Below are positions 1,222-19,278 of a DNA stretch of 64,000 nucleotides, piece after piece. The translations under genes were made by a program, and so were the position numbers. Every line of letters starts with the position of its first letter. Positions within the stretch are counted from its first letter, which is position 1. This DNA comes from Flavihumibacter solisilvae (lineage in GTDB: Bacteria > Bacteroidota > Bacteroidia > Chitinophagales > Chitinophagaceae). The notes below the pieces were generated by a model. That model did not search any database and was not told where the DNA came from. It worked only from the letters and a program-made list of their open reading frames with translations. The DNA lies in contig NZ_JSVC01000015.1 in NCBI RefSeq assembly GCF_000814475.1, positions 62,001 through 126,000 on the forward strand, read 5' to 3'.

Positions 1222-1989
1222 TCAGGCAACGATCGTGACTTCAATCCCCATGTCCATAAGTGATTTTCGCATATGATCGGAAATACCACTATCGGTAATG
1301 ATCTGTACGATTTCGTCTAATGCGCATATTCGGCCAAATCCGCGCCTGCCGAACTTGCTCGAGTCGGCAAGTACAATGGTCTTTTGTGCCGTAGCCATCA
1401 TCTTCCTGTTTAGTCGCGCTTCTTCCACATGGGTGGTGGTCAGGCCAAACTCAAGATCAATACCATCAACCCCTATGAACAATTTGCTGCAGGCAAAATC
1501 ATCGAGTGCACGTTCTGCATACACCCCCGTCGCGGAGGAGGAGCTTTTTCGGAGCATCCCACCCAGCACCAGCACTTCAATTTCAGGGTGCTGGTTAAGT
1601 TCAGTGGCCACGTTCAGGGCGGCAGTGATCACAGTGAGGTTTCCTTTTGGTTTAATATTCCTGGCAAGCGATAACACTGTGGTGCCCGAACCGATAATAA
1701 CACAATCATTCGGTTCAATCAACTCCGCCGCCACCGCGCCGATTTCGGTCTTCTCATCTGCATGAAGCTTCTCCTTTTCACTAACATGCCTGTCACTGGT
1801 ATACGGGTTACCTGCTGTAGCACCACCGTGCGTCCGGAACAAGAGGTTTTTATCCTCAAGTAATTTCAGATCCTTTCGGATGGTTACAGATGATACTTTC
1901 AAATCCCTGCACAGCTCCAGCACGTTTACGTTTCCTTCCTCTTTAAGTCGCAGCAGGATTAATTGATGTCTTTCCGCTAATGTGCTCAT
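1222..1989 (-). CDS. glpR: DeoR-family transcriptional repressor, probable GlpR
   Basis: The product has 255 residues from the ATG at 1989. The reading frame extends nine codons further upstream, but the DeoR N-terminus (MSTLAERHQLILLRLKEEG) begins at this Met. Residues 1-60 form the DeoR helix-turn-helix (VSSVTIRKDLKLLEDKNLL) followed by the hallmark RTHGGA. The rest is the DeoRC sensor domain with GSGTTV and FIGVDGID. Such repressors sense phosphorylated sugars or, for GlpR, glycerol-3-phosphate. It is transcribed away from the glpD operon, and inverted repeats with TTTCG/CGAAA half-sites lie in the shared region. The symbol rests on family plus neighbourhood; sequence alone does not separate GlpR from other DeoR members. 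Confidence 0.8.
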   Translation of the reverse strand: MSTLAERHQLILLRLKEEGNVNVLELCRDLKVSSVTIRKDLKLLEDKNLLFRTHGGATAGNPYTSDRHVSEKEKLHADEKTEIGAVAAELIEPNDCVIIGSGTTVLSLARNIKPKGNLTVITAALNVATELNQHPEIEVLVLGGMLRKSSSSATGVYAERALDDFACSKLFIGVDGIDLEFGLTTTHVEEARLNRKMMATAQKTIVLADSSKFGRRGFGRICALDEIVQIITDSGISDHMRKSLMDMGIEVTIVA

Positions 1990-2057
1990 AATGAATACAA
2001 AGTACCGAATTCCCATTGAGAAAAGAAAAGAAGCCGGGAGTGCGGTTTTATGCGGGC

Positions 2058-2196: not shown

Positions 2197-3786
2197 ATGA
2201 TGGAAATGAAAGGCATTGACGGGACCTATGATCGTGCTGCATACTTAAGTAAACTCGCAGAACCCGGATCGGAATGGGATATATTGGTAATCGGTGGCGG
2301 TGCAACCGGTCTTGGTGTCGCACTGGAAGCAGTTTCCCGTGGTTACAAAACCTTGCTGGTTGAACAGGCAGATTTTGCCAAAGGAACATCCAGCCGAAGT
2401 ACAAAACTGGTACATGGGGGCGTGCGTTACCTCGCCCAGGGCGATATACGCCTGGTGCGCGAAGCCAGTATCGAAAGGGGATTGCTTCACCGCAATGCTC
2501 CTCACCTGGTTAAAGACCAACTTTTCATAGTTCCCGTATATTCCCTGCTCGACAGGCTGAAATACACAATCGGCCTCAAATTGTACGATCGGATCGCAGG
2601 CAAACTCAGGCTGGGACCATCTGTATTTATTTCGAAAGAGGAAACCCTCAGGAGGTTACCGGGAATCCGGGCAGCCGGATTGAAAGGAGGGGTGGTGTAC
2701 CACGACGGTCAGTTTGATGATTCCCGCCTTGCCGTGAATATCGCGCAGACCATCTGGGAAAATGGTGGCGATGCCATCAATTACATGAAGGTTGTGGGCT
2801 TGTTCAAATCACAGGATGGTAAACTCACCGGGGCTTCGGTTCTGGATATTGAATCAGGTAAGCAATACCGCATATGCGCGAAGGTGGTGGTGAACGCCAC
2901 TGGTGTGTTTGTAGATGACATCCTGCAACTCGATAACCCGGGTGGTGGCCGTACTATTTGCGTCAGCCAGGGTGTTCACATTGTGCTGGATAAATCATTC
3001 TATTCTGCCGACGCCGCGCTGATGATCCCGCGTACCAGTGACGGCCGGGTGTTGTTTGCCGTTCCATGGCACGATAAAGTGGTTGTGGGCACCACAGATA
3101 CGCCTGTTGACACAGCCGAACTCGAGCCACGCGCACTTGAAAAAGAAATAAACTTTATCCTCGATACAGCCAGTGCCTACCTCGAAAAAGCGCCTCAACG
3201 TTCAGATGTGCTGAGCGTGTTTGCAGGGCAACGCCCACTAGCTGCTCCTAAGAATGGTGAACAGACAACCAAGGAAATTTCACGCAGTCATAAGATCATC
3301 GTTTCCCCTTCACGACTCTTCACCATGCTCGGCGGAAAATGGACCACATACCGCAGGATGGGAGAAGATATGGTGAACCGGATAGAACAGGAACTGAAAT
3401 GGATGCATCGGTCAAGCACAACCGCAAACCTTTCGCTCCACGGGGCCATTTCACCTTTATCCCACAGTGATCCTTTTTATTTCTACGGAAGTGATGCAGC
3501 ACTTATCAAAGAACGTATTAACGGAACGGCAGGACAATGGCTGAGTGAAAAATTAAAGATCCATCCTCAGCAGGTAAAATGGGCTGTCGAAAAAGAAATG
3601 GCAAGAACGGTGGAAGACGTGCTGGCCCGCCGCACCCGAGCACTGTTACTCGATGCTGCGGAGAGCCGGCGGATAGCACCAACTGTTGCGTCCATAATGG
3701 CACAGTGCCTTCAAAAAGACGATGACTGGGTGCAGGAGCAGGTCACGGCATTTACAAAGCTCGCAAACGACTATACCCTTAAATGA
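2197..3786 (+). CDS. glpD: FAD-dependent glycerol-3-phosphate dehydrogenase
   Basis: The 529-residue product oxidises sn-glycerol-3-phosphate to dihydroxyacetone phosphate and passes electrons to the quinone pool at the inner face of the membrane. The FAD-binding Rossmann motif (WDILVIGGGATGLG) is at residues 27-40, followed by the GlpD signature TSSRSTKLVHGGVRYL near 66-80. Later come PWHDKVVVGTTDTP and MLGGKWTTYR, and a C-terminal GlpD cap domain. Length is normal for the family. This is the first gene of the glp operon, 14 bases after a palindromic operator, and glpT follows after 26 bases. Confidence 0.95.
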   Translation: MMEMKGIDGTYDRAAYLSKLAEPGSEWDILVIGGGATGLGVALEAVSRGYKTLLVEQADFAKGTSSRSTKLVHGGVRYLAQGDIRLVREASIERGLLHRNAPHLVKDQLFIVPVYSLLDRLKYTIGLKLYDRIAGKLRLGPSVFISKEETLRRLPGIRAAGLKGGVVYHDGQFDDSRLAVNIAQTIWENGGDAINYMKVVGLFKSQDGKLTGASVLDIESGKQYRICAKVVVNATGVFVDDILQLDNPGGGRTICVSQGVHIVLDKSFYSADAALMIPRTSDGRVLFAVPWHDKVVVGTTDTPVDTAELEPRALEKEINFILDTASAYLEKAPQRSDVLSVFAGQRPLAAPKNGEQTTKEISRSHKIIVSPSRLFTMLGGKWTTYRRMGEDMVNRIEQELKWMHRSSTTANLSLHGAISPLSHSDPFYFYGSDAALIKERINGTAGQWLSEKLKIHPQQVKWAVEKEMARTVEDVLARRTRALLLDAAESRRIAPTVASIMAQCLQKDDDWVQEQVTAFTKLANDYTLK

Positions 3787-3812
3787 AAATGTGCTCAAAA
3801 CGATAAGTAGCT

Positions 3813-5150
3813 ATGCCATCCCTGAAAATCCTTCAACCCGCCGCACATCAACCATTGATCGCGGCAGAGAACATCGACCCTGAATATAAAAAACAACGCC
3901 TCCGCGTTTTTCTCGGCATCTTTATCGGTTATGCCGGTTACTACCTGGTACGGAAGAATTTTTCTCTTGCAATGCCTGACCTGGTGGAAAGAGGTTATAC
4001 CAAAGCCGAGCTCGGAATTGCCCTGTCCGGGGTATCCATTGCGTATGGACTCAGTAAATTCCTGATGGGTAACGTATCGGATCGCAGCAATTCGAGGATC
4101 TTTCTATCGCTCGGTCTCGTGTTGTCTGCTGTTACGATGATCTGCATGGGAGTATTTCCATTTGCTACCGGATCCATTGCCATCATGTTCTCCCTTCTTA
4201 TGGTGAACGGCTGGTTCCAGGGAATGGGCTGGCCGGCCTGCGGACGCGTAATGGTGCATTGGTTTTCCGTTCGTGAACGCGGAGTGAAAATGTCAATCTG
4301 GAACGTTGCGCATAATGTCGGCGGCGGACTTATCGGTCCGCTCGCGATTCTTGGTGTTGCCCTCTTCAGTGATTGGCAAAGCAAATTCTATTTTCCCGGC
4401 ATTATAGCATTGGTCGTGGCCGCTATTGCGTATGTTCTTGTCCGTGATACGCCACAATCGTGCGGACTTCCCACTATCGAGACCTACAAGAAAGAATTTT
4501 CACCCCAGTACAATGAGTCCCATGAAAAGGAAATGTCAGCTCGGCAGATCTTCATGGACTATGTTTTGGTTAACAAAATGCTTTGGTTCATTGCGCTCGC
4601 AAATGTTTTCGTTTATTTGGTCCGTTATGGCGTGCTTGATTGGGCTCCTACCTACTTGCAGGAGGCCAAGGGATTCTCCATCAAAGAAGCCGGTTGGGCT
4701 TATTTCGCGTACGAATATGCCGGTATTCCCGGAACGCTGCTCTGTGGCTGGATCAGCGATAAACTATTCAACGGCAGGAGAGCTCCCGCCACAATCATTT
4801 ACATGCTGCTGGTATTGCTTGCGCTGTGGGTGTACTGGACTAACCCTCCCGGACAACCGCTGGTAGACAATATTGCCCTGATCGCAATCGGGTTCCTTAT
4901 TTATGGACCGGTAATGCTGATCGGTGTGCAGGCGCTTGACCTGGTGCCAAAAAAAGCCGCAGGAACTGCTGCGGGACTGACGGGACTCTTCGGGTATCTC
5001 GGCGGGGCATTATTTGCCAACATAGCAATGGGGTACGTGGTGGATCATTGGGGATGGGATGGAGGATTCATGGTTCTGTTCGCCTCATGTATTCTGACCA
5101 TACTTTTCACCGCACTAACCTGGAAAAAAGAAAAAACTAAGACTTTTTAA
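3813..5150 (+). CDS. glpT: Glycerol-3-phosphate/phosphate antiporter (MFS)
   Basis: The 445-residue inner-membrane protein has about 12 hydrophobic segments. The stretch [19 protein letters not shown] matches the organophosphate:phosphate antiporter family (GlpT/UhpT), whose conserved arginine lies in the first helix. NVSDRSNSR is the MFS loop 2-3 motif, and [19 protein letters not shown] is typical of GlpT. It would import glycerol-3-phosphate in exchange for inorganic phosphate. It lies between glpD and the susC-like gene on the same strand with short gaps. UhpT (hexose phosphate) is the alternative, but the context favours glycerol-3-phosphate. Confidence 0.9.
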
Positions 5151-5179
5151 TACAAACCAACTAAAATCAAGATTGCTTT

Positions 5180-8100
5180 ATGAGGACTTTATGGAGCTTA
5201 TTCCTGCTGTTCTTTGCCACATCACTGGCAGCACAGCAAAAGACCATCAGCGGCATGGTAAAAAACGCGGAAGACGGTACTCCGGTAACCGGCGTTTCCA
5301 TCCAGGTCAAAGGCACTGCCACGGGAACAACAACCGATGACCAGGGCCGTTACACCATTGCCGCTTCCCCCAGCCATGTATTGGTTGCCTCCGCTGTAGG
5401 TTTCAACACTTTGGAACAAACAGTGGGTAACCGGACTACAATCGATTTTTCCCTCAGCAGCGCAACAAAAGAGCTCGAGAATGTCGTGGTAACGGCATTG
5501 GGTATACGCCGTGAAGAAAAGGCGCTGGGTTATGCCGTTTCAAAAGTGAAGACTGAAGAGCTGACGGACGCCATGTCGAACAACTGGAGCAATGCCCTAA
5601 CCGGTAAGGTGGCAGGCATCAACCTGGTGAAGTCCGGCGGCGGGCCGTCCGGCAGTAACAAGATCATCCTCCGCGGCGAAAACTCACTCGGTGGTAACAG
5701 CGCTGCGCTCATCGTTGTTGACGGTGTGGTAATCAGCAGCAGCAGTGGGAATATGACCGGTACCGGAAGTTCTTCTTACCTGCAGGGCGAATCACCTGTT
5801 GACTTCGGCAGCAGCATCAACGATATCAATCCAGATGACATCGAGAGTGTGTCGATCCTTAAAGGCCCTGGTGCCTCCGCACTTTACGGTGCACGCGGAG
5901 CAAACGGTGCCGTCATCATCACCACCAAATCCGGTCGTGCGCTCCAGAAAGGACTTGGTGTAAGCGTGAGCTCGAACACTATGTTCGAATCAGTGAACCG
6001 CTGGCCCGAATACCAGTATGAATTCGGTCAGGGCGCATCCCAGCAACATACCTGGTATTCATATAATGATTCGGAAGATGGCCAGAGTACCCGCAGCACC
6101 AGTTCTGCCTGGGGGCCTGCATTTAATGGCCAGTCTTACTACCAGTACGATCCTGTTACGCGCACTAAGGGCGAATCGAGGACTCCCTGGGTTCCGTATA
6201 AAGACAACCGTAAAGATTTCTTCCAGACGGGCCGTACATTCACAAACTCAGTTACTATCGAAGGTGGTAACAAAATGACACAGGCCCGGCTTTCACTTAC
6301 CAACCTCAATAACAAATGGATTGTTCCAAATACCGGCTACAAACGGAATACTGTCGCACTTTCGGTAAACCAGAAAGTGTCGGAGAAACTTCAGCTCGCT
6401 ACGAAGGTGAACTATACCAACAAAAGCAGTGACAATCTTCCTTCTACAGGGTACAACAACCAGAGCATCATGTATTTTATCCGGGGTATGACTCCCAACA
6501 TGAACCTCGACTGGTTCAGGGAGTACTGGGTACCGGAGCAGGAGCAGATCTCACAGACAAGACCATTCAGCAGTCTCCTCGATAACCCTTACCTGATCAG
6601 CTACGAAATGCTGAATAAAACATCCCGACATGGGGTAATCGGTAATATCTCTGCAACTTATAATTTTACAAAAGACCTCAGCCTTTTGGTACGTTCGGCG
6701 CTTGACTACTCGTCTGAGTATCGCTCGCAGCAACGGCCGTTCGGTACGAACAAGTTTGCTGAAGGTATGTTCCGCACACAAAATATCTTCGCACAGGAAA
6801 TCAACTCCGACTTCCTGGTGCGGTACAACCGCCCAATCACCAAAAAACTCGGTTCCAATTTCTCTGTAGGTGGAAGCACCATGACGAACAGGTATGTACG
6901 TGACGAGAACAGGGCCGACCAGCTGAACCTACCCGGTTATTACAAGCTGGCTAACAGCAAGAACCCTGTTGTATCACTTCCTTACCGTGCCGATTACAAG
7001 GTGAACAGCTTCTATGGACTCGCGCAGTTCAGCTATGACAACTTCCTGTTCCTCGATGTAACTGCACGTGAAGACTGGGCAAGTACACTCGCAACACCTG
7101 ATAATGACAAAAACGCTGACTTTTTCTATTCATCAGTAAACGCGAGTGTGGTTGTGTCTGAAAAGCTGAAACTTCCTTCGGTGATCTCCTTCCTGAAACT
7201 TCGTGCATCATATGCCGGGGTGGGTAGTGGTGGAACCATTCCTTACCTCACAGCGTACGCTTATGCGCCGACGTTGTTCCCGGGTGGACTCTCTAACCCG
7301 ACAGCAATCGCCAATCCGGACCTGATGGCACTGCTCACACAGAGCTTTGAAGCCGGTTTGGATATGCGTTTCCTGAACAACCGCATTTCACTCGATGTGG
7401 CAGTTTATCGCAACAATACAAAGAACCAGATCTTCCCCGTGCCTATTGATCGTGCTTCCGGCTATGAAGCAACAATCGCAAACGCAGGCCTCGTGCGCAA
7501 CTCGGGAATTGAAGTGCAAATGAATGCAAATGTACTTCAGTCGAAGAGCGGCCTGAGCTGGAATGTATATGGTACTTTCAGTGCCAACCAGAACAGGGTA
7601 GTGGAGCTGGTAGACGGTGTCGACACTTATGTAATGTCTACCGGTCCTGCAAACCGTGGCTCTGTTGAAGCAAGGCCGGGCGGTCGCATGGGCGATATGT
7701 ATGGCATCGGTTACGAACGTACGCCTGATGGCCAGATCATTTACAACGAACAGGGCTTACCTGTACGCACCACTACAATCAAGTATCTCGGTAACACCAA
7801 TCCTAAATGGAAGGCTGGTATCGGTAATGACCTTAAGTACAAAAATTTCGGCCTGAGCTTCCTGTTCGATGGACAGTATGGCGCTGTGGCATATTCGCTT
7901 ACCCACGCTGTTCTTGCTGAAGAAGGCAAGCTGAAGAAGACCGTTCCCGGACGATACAACGGGATCATAGGCGATGGCGTGCGACTGGATGCCTCTTCAC
8001 AGAAATATGTAAAGAATGATATTGTAGCAACCAATATCCAGGCTTACTATGATGCACATTTCAACCGTGATAACGTTGAAGCCAATACTTTCAGCACTGA

Positions 8101-8341
8101 TTACATCAAACTGCGTGAAATGCGGATCGATTATACTTTCAGCGGTAACGCTTTGAAAAAACTTGGATTGCAGCGTGCAACGGTGGGACTATACGGAAGG
8201 GACCTGCTGGTGATCTCTGAATGGCCCTCGTTCGATCCTGAGTTTGGAACCCTGAATGACGGCACGATCAATGCCGGATTTGAGATTGGGCAGTTCCCGT
8301 CGACCCGCAGCTTCGGCATCGCAATCAATTTTGGTCTCTGA
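5180..8341 (+). CDS. SusC/RagA-type TonB-dependent outer-membrane transporter of the glp operon
   Basis: The 1053-residue product has a signal peptide (MRTLWSLFLLFFATSLAAQQ). A carboxypeptidase-D-like domain follows at about residues 22-105 (ISGMVKNAEDGTPVTGVSIQ). The TonB plug at about 115-255 includes GPGASALYGARGANGAVIITT, and the rest is a 22-strand-type barrel ending in FGIAINFGL. SusC proteins take up oligomers or complex nutrients with a SusD lid lipoprotein, driven by TonB. Its place between glpT and the secreted phosphodiesterase genes suggests that it imports glycerophosphodiesters, lysophospholipid fragments or a glycerophosphate polymer into the periplasm. That substrate is inferred from context only. 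The susD-like partner starts 16 bases after its stop. Confidence 0.93.
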   Translation: MRTLWSLFLLFFATSLAAQQKTISGMVKNAEDGTPVTGVSIQVKGTATGTTTDDQGRYTIAASPSHVLVASAVGFNTLEQTVGNRTTIDFSLSSATKELENVVVTALGIRREEKALGYAVSKVKTEELTDAMSNNWSNALTGKVAGINLVKSGGGPSGSNKIILRGENSLGGNSAALIVVDGVVISSSSGNMTGTGSSSYLQGESPVDFGSSINDINPDDIESVSILKGPGASALYGARGANGAVIITTKSGRALQKGLGVSVSSNTMFESVNRWPEYQYEFGQGASQQHTWYSYNDSEDGQSTRSTSSAWGPAFNGQSYYQYDPVTRTKGESRTPWVPYKDNRKDFFQTGRTFTNSVTIEGGNKMTQARLSLTNLNNKWIVPNTGYKRNTVALSVNQKVSEKLQLATKVNYTNKSSDNLPSTGYNNQSIMYFIRGMTPNMNLDWFREYWVPEQEQISQTRPFSSLLDNPYLISYEMLNKTSRHGVIGNISATYNFTKDLSLLVRSALDYSSEYRSQQRPFGTNKFAEGMFRTQNIFAQEINSDFLVRYNRPITKKLGSNFSVGGSTMTNRYVRDENRADQLNLPGYYKLANSKNPVVSLPYRADYKVNSFYGLAQFSYDNFLFLDVTAREDWASTLATPDNDKNADFFYSSVNASVVVSEKLKLPSVISFLKLRASYAGVGSGGTIPYLTAYAYAPTLFPGGLSNPTAIANPDLMALLTQSFEAGLDMRFLNNRISLDVAVYRNNTKNQIFPVPIDRASGYEATIANAGLVRNSGIEVQMNANVLQSKSGLSWNVYGTFSANQNRVVELVDGVDTYVMSTGPANRGSVEARPGGRMGDMYGIGYERTPDGQIIYNEQGLPVRTTTIKYLGNTNPKWKAGIGNDLKYKNFGLSFLFDGQYGAVAYSLTHAVLAEEGKLKKTVPGRYNGIIGDGVRLDASSQKYVKNDIVATNIQAYYDAHFNRDNVEANTFSTDYIKLREMRIDYTFSGNALKKLGLQRATVGLYGRDLLVISEWPSFDPEFGTLNDGTINAGFEIGQFPSTRSFGIAINFGL

Positions 8342-8357
8342 TCTTTCACCAACATCA

Positions 8358-9845
8358 ATGAAGCAAATCATGAAACAACATAAACTGATCTTTGGCGGAC
8401 TGCTCGCACTCAGCCTTTTTACTATGAGTGGCTGTACCAAGGATTTTAAGGAAACCAATACTGATCCCAACAGGATGCCGGAAGCAAGACCGGAGCTTCT
8501 GCTGGAGTCGGCAATCTATAGTGCGGTAAAAGCAAACCAGACCCGCGCTCTTCGCCTTACTCATGAACTCATGCAGGTGCATGTTACAACCATCAATTCA
8601 GATGAGATTCACCGTTATATCATTCGGCCATCGGAATCTGACTATATGTGGAATGCCTGGTACCTGCAGATGACCAACTTCCGCGACATGTATGAAACCG
8701 CGAAGAAGTTGCGCAATCTTCCCAACCAGACCTATTATGATTCCTATATGGGAATGGCCCTGATCATGGACACCTGGCTGGCTTCCCTTGCGACGGATAC
8801 TTACGGCGATGTGCCATACACTGACGCTAACAAAGGGCGGAGTGATAACCTTTATCAGCCCACGTTCGACCGGCAGCAGGTCATCTACGACAGCATGTTC
8901 CATAAACTGGAAGAGGCAAATACGCTGCTTGCTCAGAACATCGCCCTGCCCGCTGCAAACCTGGTCCGCGACCCCTTGTTTGCCGGAAATATCAGTCAAT
9001 GGCGCAAGTTTGGCAACAGCCTTTACCTGCGCCTGCTGCTGCGTGCATCGGACCGACCTGAGTCCAATGCGGTAGTAAAAATCAAGGAGATCTGCGAAAC
9101 CAATACAGCATTATATCCCTTGATGAACAGTAATGCTGAATCGGCGGTTTTGCGCTTTACGACCACTGCGCCTTTCGTCTCGGCCTTCAATACTTACCGC
9201 GATTATGACTTCAACGGTGATAACGGCCTGACACAGTTCTTTATCAATACGCTGAACAACTGGGCAGACCCCAGGCTGACGAAATGGGCCAACACAGTTG
9301 GTGGAGTATACGAAGGAATTCCAAGCGGCTATGCGCCTGGTCAACAACCTGAACGCATGTCTAGCTATAATGCAGCGCTCAAAAATGAACCGTTGCTGGG
9401 GAATATCCTGAATTATGCAGAAGTCCAGTTTATGCTGGCGGAAGCATCACTAAAAGGATACTTCAACGGTACTTCGCAAACCTATTATAACAATGGGGTG
9501 AATAACGCCATTACATTCTGGGGACTCGCAGTTCCGGTTGATCACCTGCTTAATCCTGCCATTACCTGGGTAGATGCAGAAACAACCGAACAGAAAATGG
9601 AAAAAATCATCACCCAGAAATATTTCACCCTGTTCTTTACGGATTTCCAGTCGTGGTATGAACACCGCCGTACAGGTTACCCTGTTCTTCCTGTTGGACC
9701 TGGCGTTCAAAACAATGGAGAAATGCCTGCGAGACTGCAATACCCCGTGTCGGTTCAGTCACTCAACCGCACAAACTATGATGCAGCTGTTTCGGCTATG
9801 GGCGGTGACCAGATTAACGTAAAAGTCTGGTGGCAAAAAGACTAA
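8358..9845 (+). CDS. SusD-like outer-membrane lipoprotein (SusD-like_2 type)
   Basis: The ATG at 8358 (or 8370) is chosen because a clear lipoprotein signal follows (MKQHKLIFGGLLALSLFTMSGC). The frame is open to 8256, but that would overlap the susC-like gene and bury the signal. From 8358 the product has 495 residues. The KDFKETNTDPN stretch after the lipid-carrying Cys and the ILNYAEVQFMLAEASLKG helix are typical of the shorter SusD-like group usually called SusD-like_2. It forms the surface lid on the upstream SusC barrel and sets substrate preference. Ligand unknown; glycerophosphodiester-type compounds are suggested by the operon. Confidence 0.9.
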   Translation: MKQIMKQHKLIFGGLLALSLFTMSGCTKDFKETNTDPNRMPEARPELLLESAIYSAVKANQTRALRLTHELMQVHVTTINSDEIHRYIIRPSESDYMWNAWYLQMTNFRDMYETAKKLRNLPNQTYYDSYMGMALIMDTWLASLATDTYGDVPYTDANKGRSDNLYQPTFDRQQVIYDSMFHKLEEANTLLAQNIALPAANLVRDPLFAGNISQWRKFGNSLYLRLLLRASDRPESNAVVKIKEICETNTALYPLMNSNAESAVLRFTTTAPFVSAFNTYRDYDFNGDNGLTQFFINTLNNWADPRLTKWANTVGGVYEGIPSGYAPGQQPERMSSYNAALKNEPLLGNILNYAEVQFMLAEASLKGYFNGTSQTYYNNGVNNAITFWGLAVPVDHLLNPAITWVDAETTEQKMEKIITQKYFTLFFTDFQSWYEHRRTGYPVLPVGPGVQNNGEMPARLQYPVSVQSLNRTNYDAAVSAMGGDQINVKVWWQKD

Positions 9846-9879
9846 CAGGTAAGAATTCTTCAACATTCAACTAACTAAC

Positions 9880-11175
9880 ATGAACAAACGCATATATACT
9901 TTGCTGGCTGCGCTGCCACTATTGCAACTGGCTGCCTGCAAAAAAGACGTTAATCCGGCAGAAGGTACGCTAAACGACCAGGCTGCGCTTTATGTGGTAC
10001 GCGACACATGGCATAAGGGCGATGTGGCCCTGGGCCCATCTACCCTGGGAGGAGCATCCTTTACAACAGGTACAGTCATTTCTGATGCCTCTAACGGGAA
10101 TATTGCTTCCGGATCCTTCATTATCCAGTCAACTACTCTCACTGCCAACCAGGCAACGGATCTCACCCGGGGAATCATTATCGACATGGGAAGCGGCACG
10201 CAGGTTCCCTATGTTCCCGGCGATTCGCTGATGGTGAACATCGCCGGTGCCACCCTGAAACGCATCAACGGAAAACTGACGATCCAGGGAGTGACCTCCG
10301 ATAAGGTGACAAAGCTGGCTGAAGGCAGGCAGGTTTACGTACGCCCGGTGAACCTGGCAATCCTGAATAACATGTTTGATGTTTTCGAATCGACGCTGGT
10401 TGCTGTGCATGCTGATATCAATGATTATTCAGCAGGACAAACATTTTCCGGCCTTCATCCCATCGGAGATAATACTGGCAATCTTTTCCTGCATACTACT
10501 TCTGGTGCTGCTTTTGCTGGTGCGGAAACGCCACAGAATGCCCGCTTCATGGGAATTGTGGGATATAAGAACGATAACGGAAACGATACGGCCGGCGCCC
10601 AGCGCACCATAAGTTTGCGTTCGCTTAACGACACAAGCTTTGTGAGTGGCACTATTTACAGTGGATTTCCCGAAAGTTTTGAATCACCCGATTTCACAGA
10701 GAAGTCGAGCTACAACATGACCGCGACTTCCAACAATATTGACCTTGCTACCGGCAATTGGAAACTGCAGCAGGCAATCCTGGGAAATACACCTATCCGT
10801 GACCGTTTCAACCTGCCGGGTAAACAGTGTATCCGAATGCAACAGAACCTTACGAGCAGTGCATATGTGCAAATGAACTTTGATCTTCCGGATGGCGCTT
10901 CTAAAGTGACGGTGTTTTACGGGAAGTATTATACCGATCCCCGGAGTACTTTCAGGCTCGAATATTCGATCGACGGTGGTACGACCTGGGTGGTTGCAGG
11001 TACCAATGTAAATGATATGCCGGAACAGGGCTCCAACCAGGCCAGTTTCATGGTGAATGTTAGCGGACCCGTTCGATTCAGGATCAACAAACTGGGCCTG
11101 GGTGCATCCAGCTCAACAGTGCAGAATGGTCGTTTGTGTATCGAGGATATTGTTGTTTACAAACAAATTCAATAA
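9880..11175 (+). CDS. DUF5689-like lipoprotein
   Basis: The 431-residue product has a lipoprotein signal ending in LLQLAAC and is probably exposed at the outer membrane. Residues about 25-240 resemble the DUF5689 domain, an OB-like beta domain with GTVISDASNGNI and the repeated 'KLAEGRQVYV' style strands. The last 190 residues look like a beta-sandwich of the choice-of-anchor or carbohydrate-binding kind (SSAYVQMNFDLPDGASKVTV, ending IEDIVVYKQ). Proteins of this kind often follow a SusCD pair next to secreted phosphoesterases. The stop codon shares a base with the ATG of the next gene, so translation is probably coupled. Function unknown; ligand binding is the most likely role. Confidence 0.7.
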   Translation: MNKRIYTLLAALPLLQLAACKKDVNPAEGTLNDQAALYVVRDTWHKGDVALGPSTLGGASFTTGTVISDASNGNIASGSFIIQSTTLTANQATDLTRGIIIDMGSGTQVPYVPGDSLMVNIAGATLKRINGKLTIQGVTSDKVTKLAEGRQVYVRPVNLAILNNMFDVFESTLVAVHADINDYSAGQTFSGLHPIGDNTGNLFLHTTSGAAFAGAETPQNARFMGIVGYKNDNGNDTAGAQRTISLRSLNDTSFVSGTIYSGFPESFESPDFTEKSSYNMTATSNNIDLATGNWKLQQAILGNTPIRDRFNLPGKQCIRMQQNLTSSAYVQMNFDLPDGASKVTVFYGKYYTDPRSTFRLEYSIDGGTTWVVAGTNVNDMPEQGSNQASFMVNVSGPVRFRINKLGLGASSSTVQNGRLCIEDIVVYKQIQ

Positions 11176-12593
11176 TGCAAAGAAGAAAATTTGTTGCCAA
11201 CCTGTTCTGGCTTACAGGAGGCATCATGGTAGGAAGCGATCTGCTGGCAGGCAGCTCGCTTTCCTTCCGTAAAAAGATAAAAGGAACGATAAGGGCGAAC
11301 GGTGAAGGGCTTTCTAACGTAGTTGTCAGCAATGGCTTCGACGTGGTGATTACAGACCGCGATGGTGACTATACACTTCCTGTCCGTCCTGAAGCGGAAT
11401 TTATTTCTGTATCTACTCCATCCGGCTACGCGTTTCCGGCAGAAAAAGGGATTTCAAGAAGTTATGTAAGCCTGGCCGAAGCTGGTAAGAACCAGCTTGA
11501 TTTCAACCTCGTTCCGCTTGATCGTGAGGACAACGAACACCAGTTCATCATCTGGGCCGACCCGCAGGTCAAGAATAAAAAAGATGTAGGGAAAATGATG
11601 GCTGAATCAGTTCCCGATGTGAAACAGTTGGTAAATGCTGCAGGCAATGGTGCTTTACTGCATGGCATCACTGTGGGTGACCTGATGTGGGATGACCTTT
11701 CCCTATTCGGGGATTATGACAAGGCTGTAGAACAGATGGGAATTCCTTTTTTCCAGTGCATCGGTAACCATGATATGGATTATAATAAAGGAGGGGATGA
11801 AGCCTCGGACGACAGTTTCCGCAGGCAATACGGTCCGACTTATTATTCGTTCAATCGTGGTAAGGCTCATTATGTGGTGATGGATGATGTGCGTTATCTT
11901 GGTAAGGATCGTGATTATGACGGGCATATTTCACAACAGCAGCTCGAATGGCTGAAGAAAGATCTCGCTTACATTTCCAAGGACCATCTGCTGATCATTT
12001 GTGTGCACATTCCCGTTCATGATGGTGTGAAGAACAACCAGGAATTATACGACCTGCTGAAAGGATATGAGCACGTGCATATCATGTCTGGCCATACTCA
12101 TTATAACAAGAACGTGATCCGTAATGGCATTTATGAACATAACCATGGAACGGTTTGTGGCGCATGGTGGACTGGCCCGATCTGTGGTGATGGCACTCCC
12201 AGTGGTTATGGTGTCTATTCTGTAAAAGGAAATAAGCTGACATGGCAATACAAGGGTACCGGATCCCATATTGATGAACAGGTGAAATTGTTTGTTGAGA
12301 AATCACAGGATGGCGAGCAGCATCTTATTGCCAACGTCTGGAACTTCGACCCGGAATGGAAGGTTGAATGTCGTGCAGGCGATCAACGCCTCCCGTTGCT
12401 GCAGTTCAAGGGATTTGATCCGCATGCAACTGCAACCCTGCTTGGACCGGAACTACCCAAACCGCGCGGATTTGCGGAACCCAAAAAAACTGATCACCTG
12501 TTCAGGGCTGTACTGCCTGCAGGTGCAACCACTGTAACCGTTACAGCAACCGACCGATTTGGTAAACAATACACTGCAACCTATAACAGCTGA
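11175..12593 (+). CDS. Secreted calcineurin-like metallophosphoesterase
   Basis: The start at 11175 overlaps the previous stop by one base. It leaves a 472-residue product with an N-terminal RRKF and hydrophobic segment, resembling a Tat or Sec signal. Residues about 33-115 form a beta-sandwich N-terminal domain. The calcineurin-like core follows: D129-P-Q131 (the usual DxH with Gln in place of His), GDL with D169, GNHD (N198, H199), VHIPVH (H278) and SGHTH (H307, H309). A C-terminal beta domain completes the MetallophosN/Metallophos/MetallophosC layout common in Bacteroidota. It probably hydrolyses a phosphomono- or diester in the periplasm or at the surface, supplying phosphate or glycerol. 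The exact substrate is not deducible. The DxQ variant is usual for this subgroup. Confidence 0.88.
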   Translation: MQRRKFVANLFWLTGGIMVGSDLLAGSSLSFRKKIKGTIRANGEGLSNVVVSNGFDVVITDRDGDYTLPVRPEAEFISVSTPSGYAFPAEKGISRSYVSLAEAGKNQLDFNLVPLDREDNEHQFIIWADPQVKNKKDVGKMMAESVPDVKQLVNAAGNGALLHGITVGDLMWDDLSLFGDYDKAVEQMGIPFFQCIGNHDMDYNKGGDEASDDSFRRQYGPTYYSFNRGKAHYVVMDDVRYLGKDRDYDGHISQQQLEWLKKDLAYISKDHLLIICVHIPVHDGVKNNQELYDLLKGYEHVHIMSGHTHYNKNVIRNGIYEHNHGTVCGAWWTGPICGDGTPSGYGVYSVKGNKLTWQYKGTGSHIDEQVKLFVEKSQDGEQHLIANVWNFDPEWKVECRAGDQRLPLLQFKGFDPHATATLLGPELPKPRGFAEPKKTDHLFRAVLPAGATTVTVTATDRFGKQYTATYNS

Positions 12594-14104
12594 TGATGCA
12601 AAGAACTTTCCTGATGCTTTGTACTGCTGGTTTAACAACGCTTTCGTTCGCACAGGGAACGAAATGGGACAGTACTTACCGACCGAATAACTACCAGGTA
12701 AAAGTGGACCAGTTCAGGCAACTGCCCAATGATGCAGATGATATTTACTTCCTGGGAAACAGTATTACTGCCGGAATTGACTGGAATGAATTGCTCGGCG
12801 TTTCGAATATCCGGAACCGTGGCATCTCTGGCGACATCAGCTTTGGCGTTCTGGAACGCCTCGATGAAGTGATCGAAGGCAAACCTGCAAAGCTGTTCCT
12901 CCTGATCGGGATCAATGATATTTCAAGGAACATTCCCGACAGCATCATTGTTGCTAACTATCGCAACATAGTGCGAAGAATGAAGGCGGGGAGTCCCCGT
13001 ACGCGTTTGTACCTTCAGACCATACTACCGGTGAATAACCAGTTCACGCAATTCAAAAACCATTACAACAAGGATGGGCATATCCTTTTTGTAAATGATG
13101 CCATCAAAAAAATTGCGAAGGAGTTCGACGCAGTTGTAATTGACCTGCATGCACATTTCCTGGACAAAGACGGCCGGTTGGTAAAACAGTACACACACGA
13201 TGGCTTACATCTTACTATTGAAGGCTATCATCACTGGGCTTCTTTACTGAATTCTGACGGCTACATTCAGGGTAGTAAGTCGCCTGTATTCCCCGCCTTT
13301 TCAAAGGAAGGGCACCGGGGAAGCCGCGGACTGATGCCTGAGAACACTATCCCGGCAATGGAAAAAGCAATCGACTGTGGTGTTACCACACTGGAAATGG
13401 ATGTGGTAATCTCGAAGGACAGGAAGGTGGTGGTTTCGCATGACCCATATTTCAATGCGGATATCACGATTACACCTGAGGGAAAACAACTAACAAAATC
13501 GGAAGCGTCGGCCCGCGTTTTGTACGGAATGGATTACGACAGCATCCGCCGTTATGATGTAGGTTCAAAATTGCATCCCGGTTTTCCGCAACAACAGAAA
13601 ATGCCGGTCCATAAGCCCTTGCTGTCTTCTCTTATTCGCGCTGCAGAATCTTACGCAAAGGAAAACGGGGCGGGACCAATGTGGTATAATATTGAAACGA
13701 AGACAAGTGCCGGTGGCGATGGTGTTAGGCATCCTGCGCCGGAAGAGTTTGTAGACCTCCTTGTGGCATTACTTAAAGAGGAAGGAATTCTTTCACGCAC
13801 CGTAATCCAGTCGTTTGACATCCGTACCCTGCAGGTATTGAACAGGAAATATCCTTCCATTAAAACCTCGCTGCTGATAAATGCGAACGATAGCCGGTCG
13901 CTAAAAAAGCAGATCGATGAATTAGGCTTCTTGCCATTTGTATATAGTCCTCACTTTAAACTCGTAACTACTTCGCTTGTGCGTGATTGTCATGAGAAAG
14001 GGATTAAAGTAGTACCTTGGACCGTTAACACAAAAGCAGATATCGAGGCAATGAAAGTGTTGCAGGTGGATGGTATCATTTCAGATTACCCTAACCTATT
14101 CTAA
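12593..14104 (+). CDS. Fusion of SGNH/GDSL esterase and glycerophosphodiester phosphodiesterase
   Basis: This secreted protein of 503 residues (signal MMQRTFLMLCTAGLTTLSFAQ) joins two enzymes. Residues 45-225 are an SGNH hydrolase: FLGNSIT with nucleophile Ser57, GIND at 106-109, and D203-GL-H206 as the acid/base pair. Residues 235-503 are a GDPD barrel: GHRG (H241-R242), PENT (E250-N251), EMD (E268, D270) and SHDP (H283). GDPD enzymes split glycerophosphodiesters into glycerol-3-phosphate and an alcohol. SGNH esterases remove acyl chains from lipids such as lysophospholipids. Together they could turn a lysophospholipid into fatty acid, glycerol-3-phosphate and head group. The start overlaps the previous stop (ATGA-type). 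All catalytic residues of both halves appear present. Confidence 0.92.
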   Translation: MMQRTFLMLCTAGLTTLSFAQGTKWDSTYRPNNYQVKVDQFRQLPNDADDIYFLGNSITAGIDWNELLGVSNIRNRGISGDISFGVLERLDEVIEGKPAKLFLLIGINDISRNIPDSIIVANYRNIVRRMKAGSPRTRLYLQTILPVNNQFTQFKNHYNKDGHILFVNDAIKKIAKEFDAVVIDLHAHFLDKDGRLVKQYTHDGLHLTIEGYHHWASLLNSDGYIQGSKSPVFPAFSKEGHRGSRGLMPENTIPAMEKAIDCGVTTLEMDVVISKDRKVVVSHDPYFNADITITPEGKQLTKSEASARVLYGMDYDSIRRYDVGSKLHPGFPQQQKMPVHKPLLSSLIRAAESYAKENGAGPMWYNIETKTSAGGDGVRHPAPEEFVDLLVALLKEEGILSRTVIQSFDIRTLQVLNRKYPSIKTSLLINANDSRSLKKQIDELGFLPFVYSPHFKLVTTSLVRDCHEKGIKVVPWTVNTKADIEAMKVLQVDGIISDYPNLF

Positions 14105-14116
14105 AAAACGATTGAC

Positions 14117-15613
14117 ATGTCTAAATACGTACTGGCGCTCGACCAGGGCACAACAAGTTCAAGGGCAATCCTTTTCGACCGAAAGGGGCAGATCATCCGG
14201 CAGGCGCAGAAGGAATTCACCCAGCATTATCCACAACCAGGTTGGGTTGAGCATGACCCGGAAGAGATCTGGTCATCTCAGTTTGCCGTTCTGGCTGAAG
14301 TGCTTGCCAAAGCAGGGATCACGACTGGCGACGTTGCTGGTATCGGCATAACCAACCAGCGTGAAACGACTGTTGTGTGGGACCGTAAAACTTCCAGGCC
14401 GGTTTATAATGCAATAGTATGGCAGGACAGAAGAACCGCGGCTTATTGTGACCAGTTACGAGCAGAAGGTTATGAAACAATGATCCGCAATAAAACCGGC
14501 CTTCTTCCCGACGCTTATTTTTCTGCCACGAAAGTGAAATGGATCCTCGATAATGTGAGTGGCGCGCGGGAAAAAGCGATGAACGGTGAGCTTGCTTTCG
14601 GAACCATAGATACCTGGCTATCATGGAAACTGACTAACGGAAAAGTGCATGTGACAGACCTTAGCAATGCATCCCGCACGATGTTACTGAATATCCGGAC
14701 CTGTGAATGGGATGAAGAACTATTAAAATTATTTGATATTCCTGCTTCAATGCTGCCTTCCGTTGTTTCAAGCAGTGGGCAGTATGCAGTTACAGATTCC
14801 GTCGTTTCCGGCACGCATATTCCTTTGGCGGGGATTGCCGGCGATCAGCAGGCAGCTTTGTTCGGCCAGCAATGCACTCAACCGGGAATGGTGAAGAATA
14901 CATATGGAACAGGTTGCTTCATGCTGATGCATACGGGTGAGAAAATAGTCCACTCAACCCACAACCTGCTAACCACGATAGCCTGGAAAGTTAACGATCG
15001 CGTTGAGTACGCAGTTGAAGGAAGTATCTTCATTGGCGGGGCGGTAGTGCAATGGTTACGTGATGGATTGCAATTGATCCGGACCTCTGGTGAAATCGGC
15101 GAACTGGCCGGCAGTACTTCCCATACCGATGGCGTTTATATGGTTCCGGCATTTGCCGGTCTCGGTGCGCCGCACTGGAACCAGCATGCACGCGGCACCC
15201 TGTTCGGCCTTACGCGGGGAACAACGAAAGCTCATGTCGCGCGCGCTGGCCTCGAGAGCATTGCTTACCAGACTATGGAAGTGTTAAAAGCTATGGAAGC
15301 CGATGCCGGGCTGCCGATCAAAGAACTACGTGTTGATGGTGGCGCAACAGTGAATGACCTTCTCATGCAATTTCAGTGTGACTTGCTGCAGGTTCCTGTG
15401 GTTCGCCCGAAAGTCTATGAAACAACTGCACTTGGGGCCGCATACCTTGCAGGACTAGCTGTGGGATATTGGGAAAGCGAAGAGGCGATCCGTAGTCAAT
15501 GGACGGCCGACCGCTACTTTCATCCTGCAGCACCTGCTGAAGCCATGGAACCGCTGATCCGCGGCTGGCACCGCGCGGTGAAAGCCAGCGTGGCATGGGC
15601 GAATGAATCCTGA
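14117..15613 (+). CDS. glpK: Glycerol kinase
   Basis: The 498-residue product is a cytoplasmic FGGY-family kinase that phosphorylates glycerol to glycerol-3-phosphate with ATP. It shows the ATP-binding N-terminus [15 protein letters not shown], the glycerol-site stretch [22 protein letters not shown], and the C-terminal [14 protein letters not shown] and [16 protein letters not shown] motifs. Length is normal. It starts 12 bases after the esterase-phosphodiesterase fusion and is followed by glpF. The glycerol-3-phosphate it makes is the substrate of GlpD at the head of the operon. Confidence 0.97.
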
Positions 15614-15662
15614 ATTTGTTGTCTCTTTTGAATTTTTCATTTTTACTTTTTAATTTGACCAG

Positions 15663-16373
15663 ATGAACAATTGCTTTGCCGAATTCCTTGGTACCCTCAT
15701 TTTAATCCTGTTCGGAAATGGAGTAGTTGCTAATGTGCTCCTGCAGAAATCCAAAGGCCAGAACAGTGGCTGGATTGTGATCACTTTTGGTTGGGCGATG
15801 GCGGTATTTGTCGCCGTATTCGCTGTTTCAAAGTATAGCGGAGCGCATCTTAATCCCGCTGTCAGTGTTTGCCTTGCGCTTGCCGGAAAATTTGACTGGT
15901 CACTGGTGCCGATGTATATACTCTGCCAGGTGGCAGGAGCTTTCTGTGGTGCCCTGCTGGTTTGGCTGACTTATCGCCAGCATTTCGCCGCAACTGAGGA
16001 TGCTGGGCTCAAACTTGCCGTGTTCAGCACCGGTCCTGCCATTCCAAACAGGTTTTACAACCTGCTCACTGAAACTATTGCCACCGCCATCTTCCTTTTG
16101 CTTGTATTGATGATAGTGTCACCATCAAATAGTCTTGGTTCTATTGATGCCCTGCCGGTTGCCCTGCTGGTATTGGCCATTGGTCTCAGTCTTGGTGGTC
16201 CAACCGGTTACGCTATCAATCCGGCCCGCGACCTTGGCCCGCGGATGGCACATGCAGTGCTGCCTATGGGGAATAACAAGAACAGCCAGTGGGTATACGC
16301 ATGGATCCCGGTTGTTGGTCCACTGTTGGGTGCTGTTCTCGCAGCAATGGTATTCAAGGCAATCAGTCAATAA
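15663..16373 (+). CDS. glpF: Aquaglyceroporin, glycerol facilitator
   Basis: The 236-residue inner-membrane channel has six helices and two half-helices. The two NPA boxes are N64-P65-A66 (HLNPAVSVCLALAG) and N186-P187-A188, followed by R189-D190. The Asp after NPAR marks glycerol-conducting aquaglyceroporins rather than water-only aquaporins. It lets glycerol diffuse in, where GlpK traps it. It is the last gene of the glp operon, 49 bases after glpK, and is followed by an intrinsic terminator. Confidence 0.95.
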   Translation: MNNCFAEFLGTLILILFGNGVVANVLLQKSKGQNSGWIVITFGWAMAVFVAVFAVSKYSGAHLNPAVSVCLALAGKFDWSLVPMYILCQVAGAFCGALLVWLTYRQHFAATEDAGLKLAVFSTGPAIPNRFYNLLTETIATAIFLLLVLMIVSPSNSLGSIDALPVALLVLAIGLSLGGPTGYAINPARDLGPRMAHAVLPMGNNKNSQWVYAWIPVVGPLLGAVLAAMVFKAISQ

Positions 16374-16396: not shown

Positions 16397-16427
16397 AAAA
16401 GGACACGAAATCTATTCGTGTCCTTTT
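16397..16427. terminator. Hairpin terminator between convergent glpF and epoxide hydrolase genes
   Basis: AAAAGGACACGAA (16397-16409) pairs perfectly with TTCGTGTCCTTTT (16415-16427) around a 5-base loop. The A-rich and T-rich ends make it usable from both strands, fitting its place between two converging genes. Confidence 0.85.
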
Positions 16428-16457: not shown

Positions 16458-17714
16458 TCAGCGTAATGTCCTGAAACCGGTACGCAACGCGTCAATGATC
16501 CGTTGGGGTCGTTCCCACGAAGGGAAATGCGCGCCTTTCTCCTCTTGCCTGTAGTATACCAGGTTGGGATATGCCTGTTCTGACCAACTCTTTGGGGCCT
16601 GGTAAAGTTCGCCGGGGAAAACGCTCACTGCAGTCGGCACCTTCACACCTTTCGGAGTAAAAAACGGAAACTTGTTTTCCCAATAGATCCGGCTTGCTGA
16701 CACACCTGATTTTGTGAACCAGAAAAGGGTTATGATATCAAGCAGATCATTCCTGGAAAGGCCTTCATCATAAACTGAAAATAGTCGCGCATCAGGTTTT
16801 TCGTTGTCCGCGTTCTGAAACAGTTCTGTCGCCGGCGGATAGAATAAGGCCGTTATTGGGTCGAGCAGGAATGCTGCCAGTCCAATCGGAGAATCAATCA
16901 ATCCGGCAAGCGCCTGTGGACGCGATGCCAGGTAATAGGCATAATGCACGTTTTTGTAGGCTTTGCTTAATTGCTCATAGGCACGTTGTTCTTCCTGGGT
17001 AAGACCTGCAGGTACCGGTGCACCGGTTGCTGAAGCCTGGTGTATATTATCGGGGACCACACCCGGCATATTGGAATGTAGACCAATTATATTTTCCGGA
17101 AATTGTGCTGCCAACAGGTCTACGGTGATTGCGCCCCAGTCTGTTCCATGTAAAAAGTACCTGTCATAACCCAGCCGGTTCATAAGTGTCGCCCAGGCAA
17201 CTGCAATCTGTCCCGGATCCCAACCTGTCGTTGTTGGTTTTCCTGAAAATCCATATCCCGGAAAGGAAGGCAATACCACATGAAAGGCATCGGATTCATT
17301 GCCGCCATATGCTGTTGGATTAATCAGGGGGTCGATTATCTTCAAATGTTCAATGATAGTTCCGGGCCATCCATGCGCAAGAAGGATCGGCCTGGCATTT
17401 TCATGATTAGATCGGGCATGGATAAAGTGGATGTCAACGCCGTTGATTTCTGTAAGAAAATTAGGGTACGAATTCAGTTTGGTTTCCACCTTTCGCCAGT
17501 CATATTCATTGGCCCAAAACTTCGCAAGTTCCTCGATTGTGGACAGCTGAATGCCCTGCGATATGTCGTTGACTGTTTCTCTTTCTGGAAATCTCGTCGC
17601 CAGGATGCGGCGTTTCAACTCGTCCAGTTCAGATTGAGGAATGGTTACCTTAAAAGGACGAATGTCAATGACGGATCCTTTTACTTGTGACGCAGTGCTT
17701 TCAGGCTGTTTCAT
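16458..17714 (-). CDS. Epoxide hydrolase family alpha/beta hydrolase, cytoplasmic copy
   Basis: The 418-residue product has no signal peptide. Residues 18-130 hold the epoxide hydrolase N-terminal region (IRPFKVTIPQSELDELKRRI, then YDWRKVETKLNSYPNF). The alpha/beta hydrolase core follows, with HGWPG (114-118) forming the oxyanion hole, GYGFSGKP, and the nucleophile Asp192 in HGTDWGA. The catalytic His is in EEKGAHFPSWERP near the C-terminus. Such enzymes open epoxides to diols through an aspartyl ester. It lies 35 bases downstream of a second copy on the same strand, with almost gap-free alignment between the two. It differs in lacking the export signal. Substrate unknown. Confidence 0.9.
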   Translation of the reverse strand: MKQPESTASQVKGSVIDIRPFKVTIPQSELDELKRRILATRFPERETVNDISQGIQLSTIEELAKFWANEYDWRKVETKLNSYPNFLTEINGVDIHFIHARSNHENARPILLAHGWPGTIIEHLKIIDPLINPTAYGGNESDAFHVVLPSFPGYGFSGKPTTTGWDPGQIAVAWATLMNRLGYDRYFLHGTDWGAITVDLLAAQFPENIIGLHSNMPGVVPDNIHQASATGAPVPAGLTQEEQRAYEQLSKAYKNVHYAYYLASRPQALAGLIDSPIGLAAFLLDPITALFYPPATELFQNADNEKPDARLFSVYDEGLSRNDLLDIITLFWFTKSGVSASRIYWENKFPFFTPKGVKVPTAVSVFPGELYQAPKSWSEQAYPNLVYYRQEEKGAHFPSWERPQRIIDALRTGFRTLR

Positions 17715-17749
17715 TTTTTGAAGTTATAAGATGAAATGGTTGGGTTTAT

Positions 17750-19027: not shown

Positions 19028-19079
19028 TGTTTGATGGTTTTGATGTTTGATATGTTGATTTGAAATGAGACGAATAGAG

Positions 19080-19095
19080 TGGAACAAACGTTCCA
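19080..19095. promoter_or_regulatory. Palindromic operator copy 1, TGGAAC-N4-GTTCCA
   Basis: TGGAAC AAAC GTTCCA, with 6-base perfect arms, 53 bases upstream of the exported epoxide hydrolase start. It is one of three sites with identical arms and spacer length within 230 bases. The shape suits a dimeric TetR/AcrR-type repressor. Confidence 0.7.
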
Positions 19096-19147
19096 GATTA
19101 AGAGAAAAAAAAGGATTCAGTGAATCAGGATGTAAAGCTATACAAAA

Positions 19148-19163
19148 TGGAACGAATGTTCCA
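19148..19163. promoter_or_regulatory. Palindromic operator copy 2, TGGAAC-N4-GTTCCA
   Basis: TGGAAC GAAT GTTCCA, centred 68 bases from copy 1. On the minus strand a TACATTTG (19169-19162), matching the -7 consensus TAnnTTTG, overlaps its edge. No good -33 box was seen, so this second promoter is uncertain. Confidence 0.7.
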
Positions 19164-19278
19164 AATGTAAACCTGAAAATAATTGTTAAGCATTCTTGAA
19201 ACGAAAAATGCAATGTCTGTCAGTGCTGGGCTCATCGTAGTGGCTGAATGATTAGGTATTAATTTCTGTTTCATGACA

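Follow-up and report, generated by a model that had tools for sequence, protein, structure and literature searches.

Among described bacterial systems, those closest in kind to the locus reported here are the polysaccharide utilisation loci and the phosphate-starvation PusCD clusters. The former hold an adjacent SusC/SusD pair (hereafter SusCD), a further lipoprotein, secreted depolymerising enzymes and a dedicated regulator in one gene run. Bacterial glp regulons, in turn, hold glpF-glpK-glpD, glpT and glpQ. The PusCD clusters of Flavobacterium have been described as pairing SusCD with phosphodiesterases under phosphate starvation (PMC8115612), and the GlpQ glycerophosphodiesterase of Bacillus subtilis as freeing glycerol phosphate from wall teichoic acid (PMC7086022). 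Here we describe a locus of Flavihumibacter solisilvae in which a SusCD pair is enclosed by glp genes, located within a stretch of 64,000 nucleotides (contig NZ_JSVC01000015.1, positions 62,001 to 126,000; referred to as the window, in whose numbering all coordinates are given). On balance, we read it as a locus dedicated to the use of glycerol-phosphate material, the likeliest substrate of which would be a glycosylated, ester-substituted poly(glycerol phosphate). No such locus was described in the titles and abstract openings searched, which were those of open-licence papers, with subscription papers mostly outside this scope.

Nine genes, all on the forward strand, span positions 2197–16373 in the order glpD, glpT, susC, susD, DUF5689, MPE, SGNH-GDPD, glpK and glpF. 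An earlier note on this DNA had described such a tight, one-strand run, and the gene calls bear it out with spacings between –1 and 49 bases (in order, 26, 29, 16, 34, –1, –1, 12 and 49), which suggests a single transcript. The first gene encodes a glpD-type FAD glycerol-3-phosphate dehydrogenase (2197–3786; PF01266 (DAO) and PF16901 (DAO_C)) that passed no equivalog cut-off (best 290.9 vs. 360 bits) and is putatively named from homology (Pfam) and context. It is followed by the glycerol-3-phosphate transporter gene glpT (3813–5150; TIGR00712, 711 bits, above the cut-off of 632.55), the gene for a SusC/RagA TonB-linked outer membrane transporter (5180–8341; TIGR04056, 588 bits, above cut-off) and that for a SusD-like lipoprotein (8358–9845; PF12771), with lipobox MSGC followed by TKD. 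The mechanically assigned start of the susD open reading frame (ORF) at 8256 would overlap susC, and the start lies more plausibly at 8358 or 8370. Next come a DUF5689 lipoprotein, i.e., a probable surface binding protein (9880–11175; PF18942; lipobox LAAC, then KKD), and a calcineurin-like phosphodiesterase with MetallophosN and MetallophosC domains, referred to as MPE (11175–12593; PF16371, PF00149 and PF16370), which probably starts at the ATG at 11175, sharing one base with the DUF5689 stop, rather than at the GTG at 11136. An SGNH esterase fused to a GDPD phosphodiesterase (12593–14104; assigned via Pfam and PDB sequence matches), with an N-terminal signal-like stretch in the lipobox/signal check, precedes the glycerol kinase gene glpK (14117–15613; TIGR01311, 729 bits, above cut-off) and a gene for a glpF-type MIP channel (15663–16373; Pfam and TIGR00861, 186 bits, above cut-off).

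Together with its regulator gene, this run shares all the above-mentioned features of polysaccharide utilisation loci. It differs from them in that its enzymes are phosphodiesterases and an esterase, that glp genes serve catabolism and that the regulator is of the DeoR type; moreover, unlike in polysaccharide utilisation loci, no glycoside hydrolase or polysaccharide lyase was found among the nine window proteins (Pfam). With glp regulons it shares the catabolic and inner membrane genes plus a GDPD, and glpD, glpK and a glycerol-3-phosphate transporter gene lie beside a DeoR-type regulator gene, whereas the outer membrane SusCD, the DUF5689 protein, the MPE and the SGNH are additions, with the GDPD being fused to the latter. 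The enzyme families and the predicted MPE fold are compatible with hydrolysis of poly(glycerol phosphate). With B. subtilis GlpQ the locus has a putative glycerophosphodiesterase in common; that enzyme, however, breaks down the cell's own Gram-positive wall and involves no uptake across an outer membrane.

Conservation was examined within 147 genomes of the family (the window's own included), of which 32 matched SusD at E ≤ 1e-60 and 90 matched GlpD. Of the 44 SusD places, 40 were fetched and mapped (those left out being the window itself, G095:C643, G036:C30:190257 and G002:C11), and SusCD was found to adjoin glp genes in 12 of the 147 genomes, again counting the window's own and with varying completeness (G000, G002, G003, G016, G022, G039, G049, G091, G102, G104, G106 and G119; no MPE was seen at this place in G022 and G119). 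In nine of these twelve genomes, the linked glpD was the sole copy at threshold, and two copies were present in G000, G002 and G102. Elsewhere in the F. solisilvae genome lies another glpD, 48% identical and accompanied by a glpK (L123, G000:C12:257362-258897), without this kind of SusCD nearby, and the SusCD operon is therefore a second glp set of this genome; two same-genus genomes (G008 and G108) carry a glp set similar to that of L123.

Beyond the family, an MPE alignment scan of a genome collection confirmed 247 relatives, and the best 80 of these 247 were taken as named loci, so that counts among them are biased to close relatives. They stem mainly from Chitinophagaceae, Pedobacter, Pontibacter and Rufibacter, the genera including Niastella, Terrimonas, Flavisolibacter, Sediminibacterium, Pedobacter, Mucilaginibacter, Pontibacter and Rufibacter, among others. 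Genes were counted as present within about 10.5 kb of the MPE, several loci being cut by contig ends, and SusC/SusD matches below 40% identity were not counted as this kind of SusCD. Both SusC and SusD were present in 63 of the 80 named loci, GDPD in 69, SGNH in 64 and DUF5689 in 56, while glpD was found in 45, glpK in 42, glpF and glpT in 34 each, and any of these four in 60. SusCD was combined with at least one glp gene in 46 named loci and with a glp gene, GDPD or SGNH in 59; only 4 had SusCD without any of these, and 17 had no SusCD pair of this kind. The genes thus stay grouped in other genomes as well, a point that the earlier note had proposed to check. Gene order varied by group, since glpD mostly comes first in Chitinophagaceae and glpK-glpF-glpT in Pontibacter, while in many Pedobacter loci glpT lies between GDPD and SGNH, indicating that the set was kept together through rearrangement. 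Chance adjacency of SusCD and glp genes was set aside owing to this conservation in the family and the named loci.

The enzymes and the importer show different histories. A tree built from 20 MPEs placed all 10 glp-linked ones on one side of a branch (support 100/99). The 13 glp-linked rows in a tree of 41 SusD proteins were instead scattered, requiring 10 changes, of which well-supported branches force 7 or more, and this resembles shuffled labels (mean of 11.4 changes; 100 of 500 shuffles as low). Furthermore, there are similar SusCD-DUF5689 units that have no glp gene within about 10 kb, some of them accompanied by an MPE belonging to the other clade, and upstream of the two that were checked lie FecR (L067) or an ECF sigma factor and FecR (L070). 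Since the MPEs of glp-linked loci form one clade, the SusDs are scattered, and both SusCD-less and glp-less loci exist, SusCD and the DUF5689 lipoprotein that goes with it seem to have been swapped between two types of locus. A comparable pattern would arise if some lines had lost their glp genes, and the DUF5689 proteins, being less scattered than SusD (6 changes, at least 4 forced; only 3 of 500 shuffles as low), speak against such exchange.

With regard to the enzymes, the predicted MPE model (pLDDT 86.9) matched Rv0805 best (target TM-score up to 0.73), followed by the glycerophosphodiesterase GpdQ (0.63–0.64) and, at little distance, by purple acid phosphatases; enzymes with an Rv0805-like fold are also able to cleave cyclic nucleotides. 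Residues D129, Q131, G168-D169, G197-N198-H199-D200, H278 and G306-H307-T308-H309 were invariant among 41 homologues and, going by the motifs of the family, are presumably metal-binding. By sequence, used singly or as a profile, the MPE found no match in the PDB. The GDPD half has 3ch0, a glycerophosphodiester phosphodiesterase, as its nearest solved structure, and distantly matches 5t91 (E 5.9e-14), which we take to be GlpQ of B. subtilis. Family and fold thus back the view of the earlier note that GDPD and MPE act on glycerophosphodiesters. Its mention of secreted lipid hydrolases is less well supported, since the structures nearest to the SGNH half, i.e., 7pzg and 6njc, bear the depositor names Lysophospholipase L1, which speaks for it, and sialate O-acetylesterase, which speaks against it. 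Both are named in a paper on a sialic acid acetylesterase of Phocaeicola vulgatus (PMC9063846), and the SGNH half also showed a weak, sub-cut-off match to the acetylxylan esterase AxeA1. A match spanning both the SGNH and GDPD halves was found in the window genome only among the 147 family genomes, and none of the ORFs in the 80 named loci or in the other loci fetched covered the two halves; in relatives they are separate genes, often adjacent. A sequencing error as the origin of the fusion was set aside because the gene is one open frame, though raw reads could still reveal one.

Clues to the substrate come from accessory genes in the relatives. Unlabelled ORFs of at least 150 amino acids inside the same-strand run (gaps below 700 bases) of the 80 loci were surveyed, yielding 27 ORFs, and profiles of the recurrent ones were then searched against all locus ORFs. 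A PLD-like protein was encoded in 13 of the 80 loci, 11 times as an internal ORF and in all 11 with a lipoprotein-like N-terminus (judged by eye), whereas the copy of L194 lies beyond an inverted ORF; against solved structures, a PLD-like relative gave marginal matches only. A GH36 alpha-galactosidase gene was internal in 6 loci (Flavisolibacter, Rufibacter and Pedobacter), at three kinds of site (GDPD-GH36-glpK, MPE-GH36-GDPD and GDPD-GH36-glpT), and was the sole copy (E ≤ 1e-40) in 5 of the 6 genomes. Across the 79 of 80 searchable genomes, GH36 occurred 53 times at E ≤ 1e-100 (26 in 40 and 27 in 39); if the operon represents about 10 of 4,500 gene places, which is our estimate, chance would put about 0.12 copies inside it. 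A GH89 alpha-N-acetylglucosaminidase gene was found in 4 loci, all of Rufibacter (3 internal, that of L194 again beyond the inverted ORF), the locus copy being the sole one in 2 of these 4 genomes, while a fifth Rufibacter was without GH89. Single cases were a NAGPA-type phosphodiester glycosidase (L193), a DUF6528 protein (L208), a GFO/IDH oxidoreductase (L196), a SusC-like protein with an unclassified 539-residue ORF (L161), and short unclassified ORFs (L169 and L204). The remaining one of the 13 PLD-like cases is a longer ORF (L190:7717-9987) that joins a PLD-like domain (Pfam) to a region that resembles DUF5689 by BLAST, not in Pfam, hinting at a link between DUF5689 and phosphodiesterases.

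Teichoic acids commonly bear alpha-galactose, alpha-GlcNAc and ester groups on their glycerol-phosphate backbone. As genes for alpha-galactosidase, alpha-N-acetylglucosaminidase and PLD-like proteins lie in the loci of relatives, the likeliest substrate would be wall teichoic acid or a similar capsule polymer, and where the earlier note put lysophospholipids, glycerophosphodiesters and teichoic acid side by side, these accessory enzymes appear to favour a glycosylated glycerol-phosphate polymer of the teichoic-acid type over plain phospholipid head groups. B. subtilis GlpQ is reported to degrade unsubstituted wall teichoic acid, made of sn-glycerol-3-phosphate, and not to degrade intact lipoteichoic acid, made of sn-glycerol-1-phosphate (PMC7086022); since it is built of sn-glycerol-3-phosphate, wall teichoic acid could feed GlpT and GlpD directly. 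The poly(glycosylglycerol phosphate) capsules reported for some Gram-negatives are similar polymers (PMC8262930).

That the locus serves glycerol-phosphate compounds of some sort is, in our view, probable, while a teichoic-type polymer as the natural substrate is about evenly poised. In the scheme that we propose, a glycerol-phosphate polymer or oligomer would be bound at the cell surface by SusC, its SusD lid and the DUF5689 lipoprotein, and imported with TonB-derived power. In the periplasm, the SGNH domain would take off ester substituents, and MPE and GDPD would cut the phosphodiester chain into glycerol-3-phosphate and glycerol. These could then pass the inner membrane via GlpT and GlpF and be converted by GlpK and GlpD into dihydroxyacetone phosphate. 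SusCD systems tend to be taken for glycan importers without further thought. One that is conserved and linked to glycerol-phosphate catabolism would widen their range to include phosphodiester polymers; were teichoic acid the substrate, the locus would moreover offer a Gram-negative route for recycling the large carbon and phosphorus pool of Gram-positive walls. More tentatively, Bacteroidota might eat Gram-positive teichoic acids by means of a widespread, as yet unnamed class of loci, in which a SusCD takes in the anionic polymer and SusCD and glycosidase modules are exchanged to match wall decoration. Loci with GH36 would then be predicted from their sequence to prefer alpha-galactosylated polymers, and those with GH89 alpha-GlcNAc polymers.

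Several observations weigh against a decorated polymer taken up by this SusCD. The window operon itself has neither a glycosidase nor a PLD-like gene, so that the decorations are read from relatives, and GH36, GH89 and PLD genes occur in a minority of loci, GH36 in three genera and GH89 in Rufibacter alone. The solved enzymes nearest to GH36 are alpha-galactosidases in general. Genes of the glycosidase type GH92 follow GDPD at the edge of seven Niastella/Longitalea loci without SusCD (L136, L137, L138, L139, L144, L146 and L147; the family was checked for L136 and for L103, which is the same place as L138, and assigned by BLAST cluster for the other five). Nine of the 17 named loci without SusCD hold the enzymes and glp genes with no contig end to blame, whereas several of the remaining 8 are cut by contig ends; in L103 and L107, too, regulator, glpD, MPE, SGNH, glpK, glpF and GDPD stand without SusCD. 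Both same-genus genomes searched (G008 and G108) lacked a SusD match at E ≤ 1e-60. Finally, a crude lipobox test was positive for 33 of 64 SusD ORFs and 30 of 61 DUF5689 ORFs, many ORF starts being uncertain.

Uptake of lysophospholipids or of deacylated head groups (glycerophosphocholine, -ethanolamine or -glycerol), with SGNH as the deacylase and GDPD and MPE freeing glycerol-3-phosphate, would be the main competing explanation, although we regard it as rather unlikely. The GDPD and GpdQ-like folds suit head-group diesters, the Lysophospholipase L1 name of the nearest SGNH structures counts against a polymer, and a PUSI system has been proposed for lipid head groups and nucleic acids (PMC8115612). 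Moreover, in G007 (C32; L117 and L129) two unrelated SusCD pairs (PF07980) lie behind a glp operon in the same orientation, and the run also encodes a purple acid phosphatase-like protein, a member of the phospholipase C family and an SGNH that shares 62% identity with that of the window; apparently an independent joining of SusCD to glp genes, this arrangement speaks for a lipid substrate and thus against a teichoic-type one. Small diesters, however, would hardly require a SusCD and surface lipoprotein complex, head groups carry neither the alpha-galactose nor the alpha-GlcNAc that GH36 and GH89 in the relatives' loci would remove, and the nearest SGNH structure is treated as an acetylesterase in the paper that names it (PMC9063846). 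Plain nucleic acid scavenging was set aside, as no nuclease family was found among the nine operon proteins (Pfam).

The locus could also be a phosphate scavenger of the PusCD kind, controlled by phosphate starvation and yielding glycerol carbon as a by-product, which we consider improbable. SusCD beside periplasmic phosphodiesterases, one of them with a Metallophos domain, is how PUS clusters are described (PMC8115612). In the same source, however, PusD1 and PusD2 are assigned to PF07980/PF14322 and ECF sigma factors or FecR are tabled for PUSI-III, whereas here SusD belongs to PF12771, the regulator is of the DeoR type, and glpD, glpT, glpK and glpF are present; the word glycerol is absent from its main text. 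Since PusD is reported to be polyphyletic (PMC8115612), the difference in SusD family is not decisive alone. That SusCD handles an ordinary glycan and sits among glp genes by accident seems least probable of all: the shuffle-like scatter of glp-linked SusDs and the glp-less SusCD-DUF5689 units, of which the two checked lie behind FecR or ECF sigma and FecR genes, would suit it, but the linkage to glp genes (46 of 80), or to glp, GDPD or SGNH genes (59 of 80), persists although its arrangement differs among Chitinophagaceae, Pedobacter and Pontibacter.

Divergent from glpD lies a gene for a DeoR-family regulator of the AgaR/GlpR type (HTH_DeoR and DeoRC; 1222–2016, reverse strand; PF00455 and PF08220), a feature missing from the earlier note, as was the palindrome described below. 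Of the curated models, AgaR came closest (252.3 bits vs. a cut-off of 260) and no GlpR cut-off was passed, so that GlpR would be a name from context; a homologue was present in 46 of the 80 named loci. A palindrome, GTTTCG-N13-CGAAAC (2157–2181), ends 15 bases before glpD as a candidate operator, its full pattern occurring once in the genome even with up to three mismatches allowed. Among 37 regulator intergenic regions (the window and 36 from named loci; expected counts from first-order Markov shuffles), it was found in 8 with at most one mismatch (0.3 expected) and in 14 with at most two (2.6 expected), eleven of the latter ending 3–33 bases and one 142 bases upstream of glpD, with the other two lying before susC. 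This assignment is weakened by the 23 of 37 regions without a site at up to two mismatches and by the motif having been picked from the window and 11 relatives, some of which recur among the 37, so that the test is not fully independent; no site was seen in the 8 regions where glpD diverges from a regulator that precedes susC. Its placement fits DeoR-type repression at the glpD promoter in Chitinophagaceae-type loci, where the repressor would release the operon once a glycerol-phosphate intermediate accumulates.

As to the lipoproteins, the residues after the lipobox, here TKD and KKD, can mark surface export in Bacteroidota. The predicted DUF5689 model (pLDDT 83.0) was mostly beta and gave partial beta-sandwich matches to carbohydrate-binding modules and MAM domains, with a query TM-score of at most 0.27 among the 50 matches listed. 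Against solved structures, its profile found only a marginal Reelin match near the C-terminal end, and because of this match the module- and MAM-like similarities may belong to the C-terminal part.

Downstream of glpF, a hairpin of 13 pairs (16397–16427) may be a terminator between the operon and the convergent gene; it was listed on the reverse strand only, and because its stem is near-symmetric it might end the operon on the forward strand too. The terminator scan as a whole was near shuffle level (20 found vs. a mean of 17.0), as was the sigma-70 scan. Beyond it, convergent with the operon, lie two tandem genes for similar proteins (16458–19213, reverse strand), the first being epoxide-hydrolase-like (PF06441), and on the other side the regulator gene is adjoined by a gene for a putative cyclase family protein (378–1196, reverse strand; PF04199).

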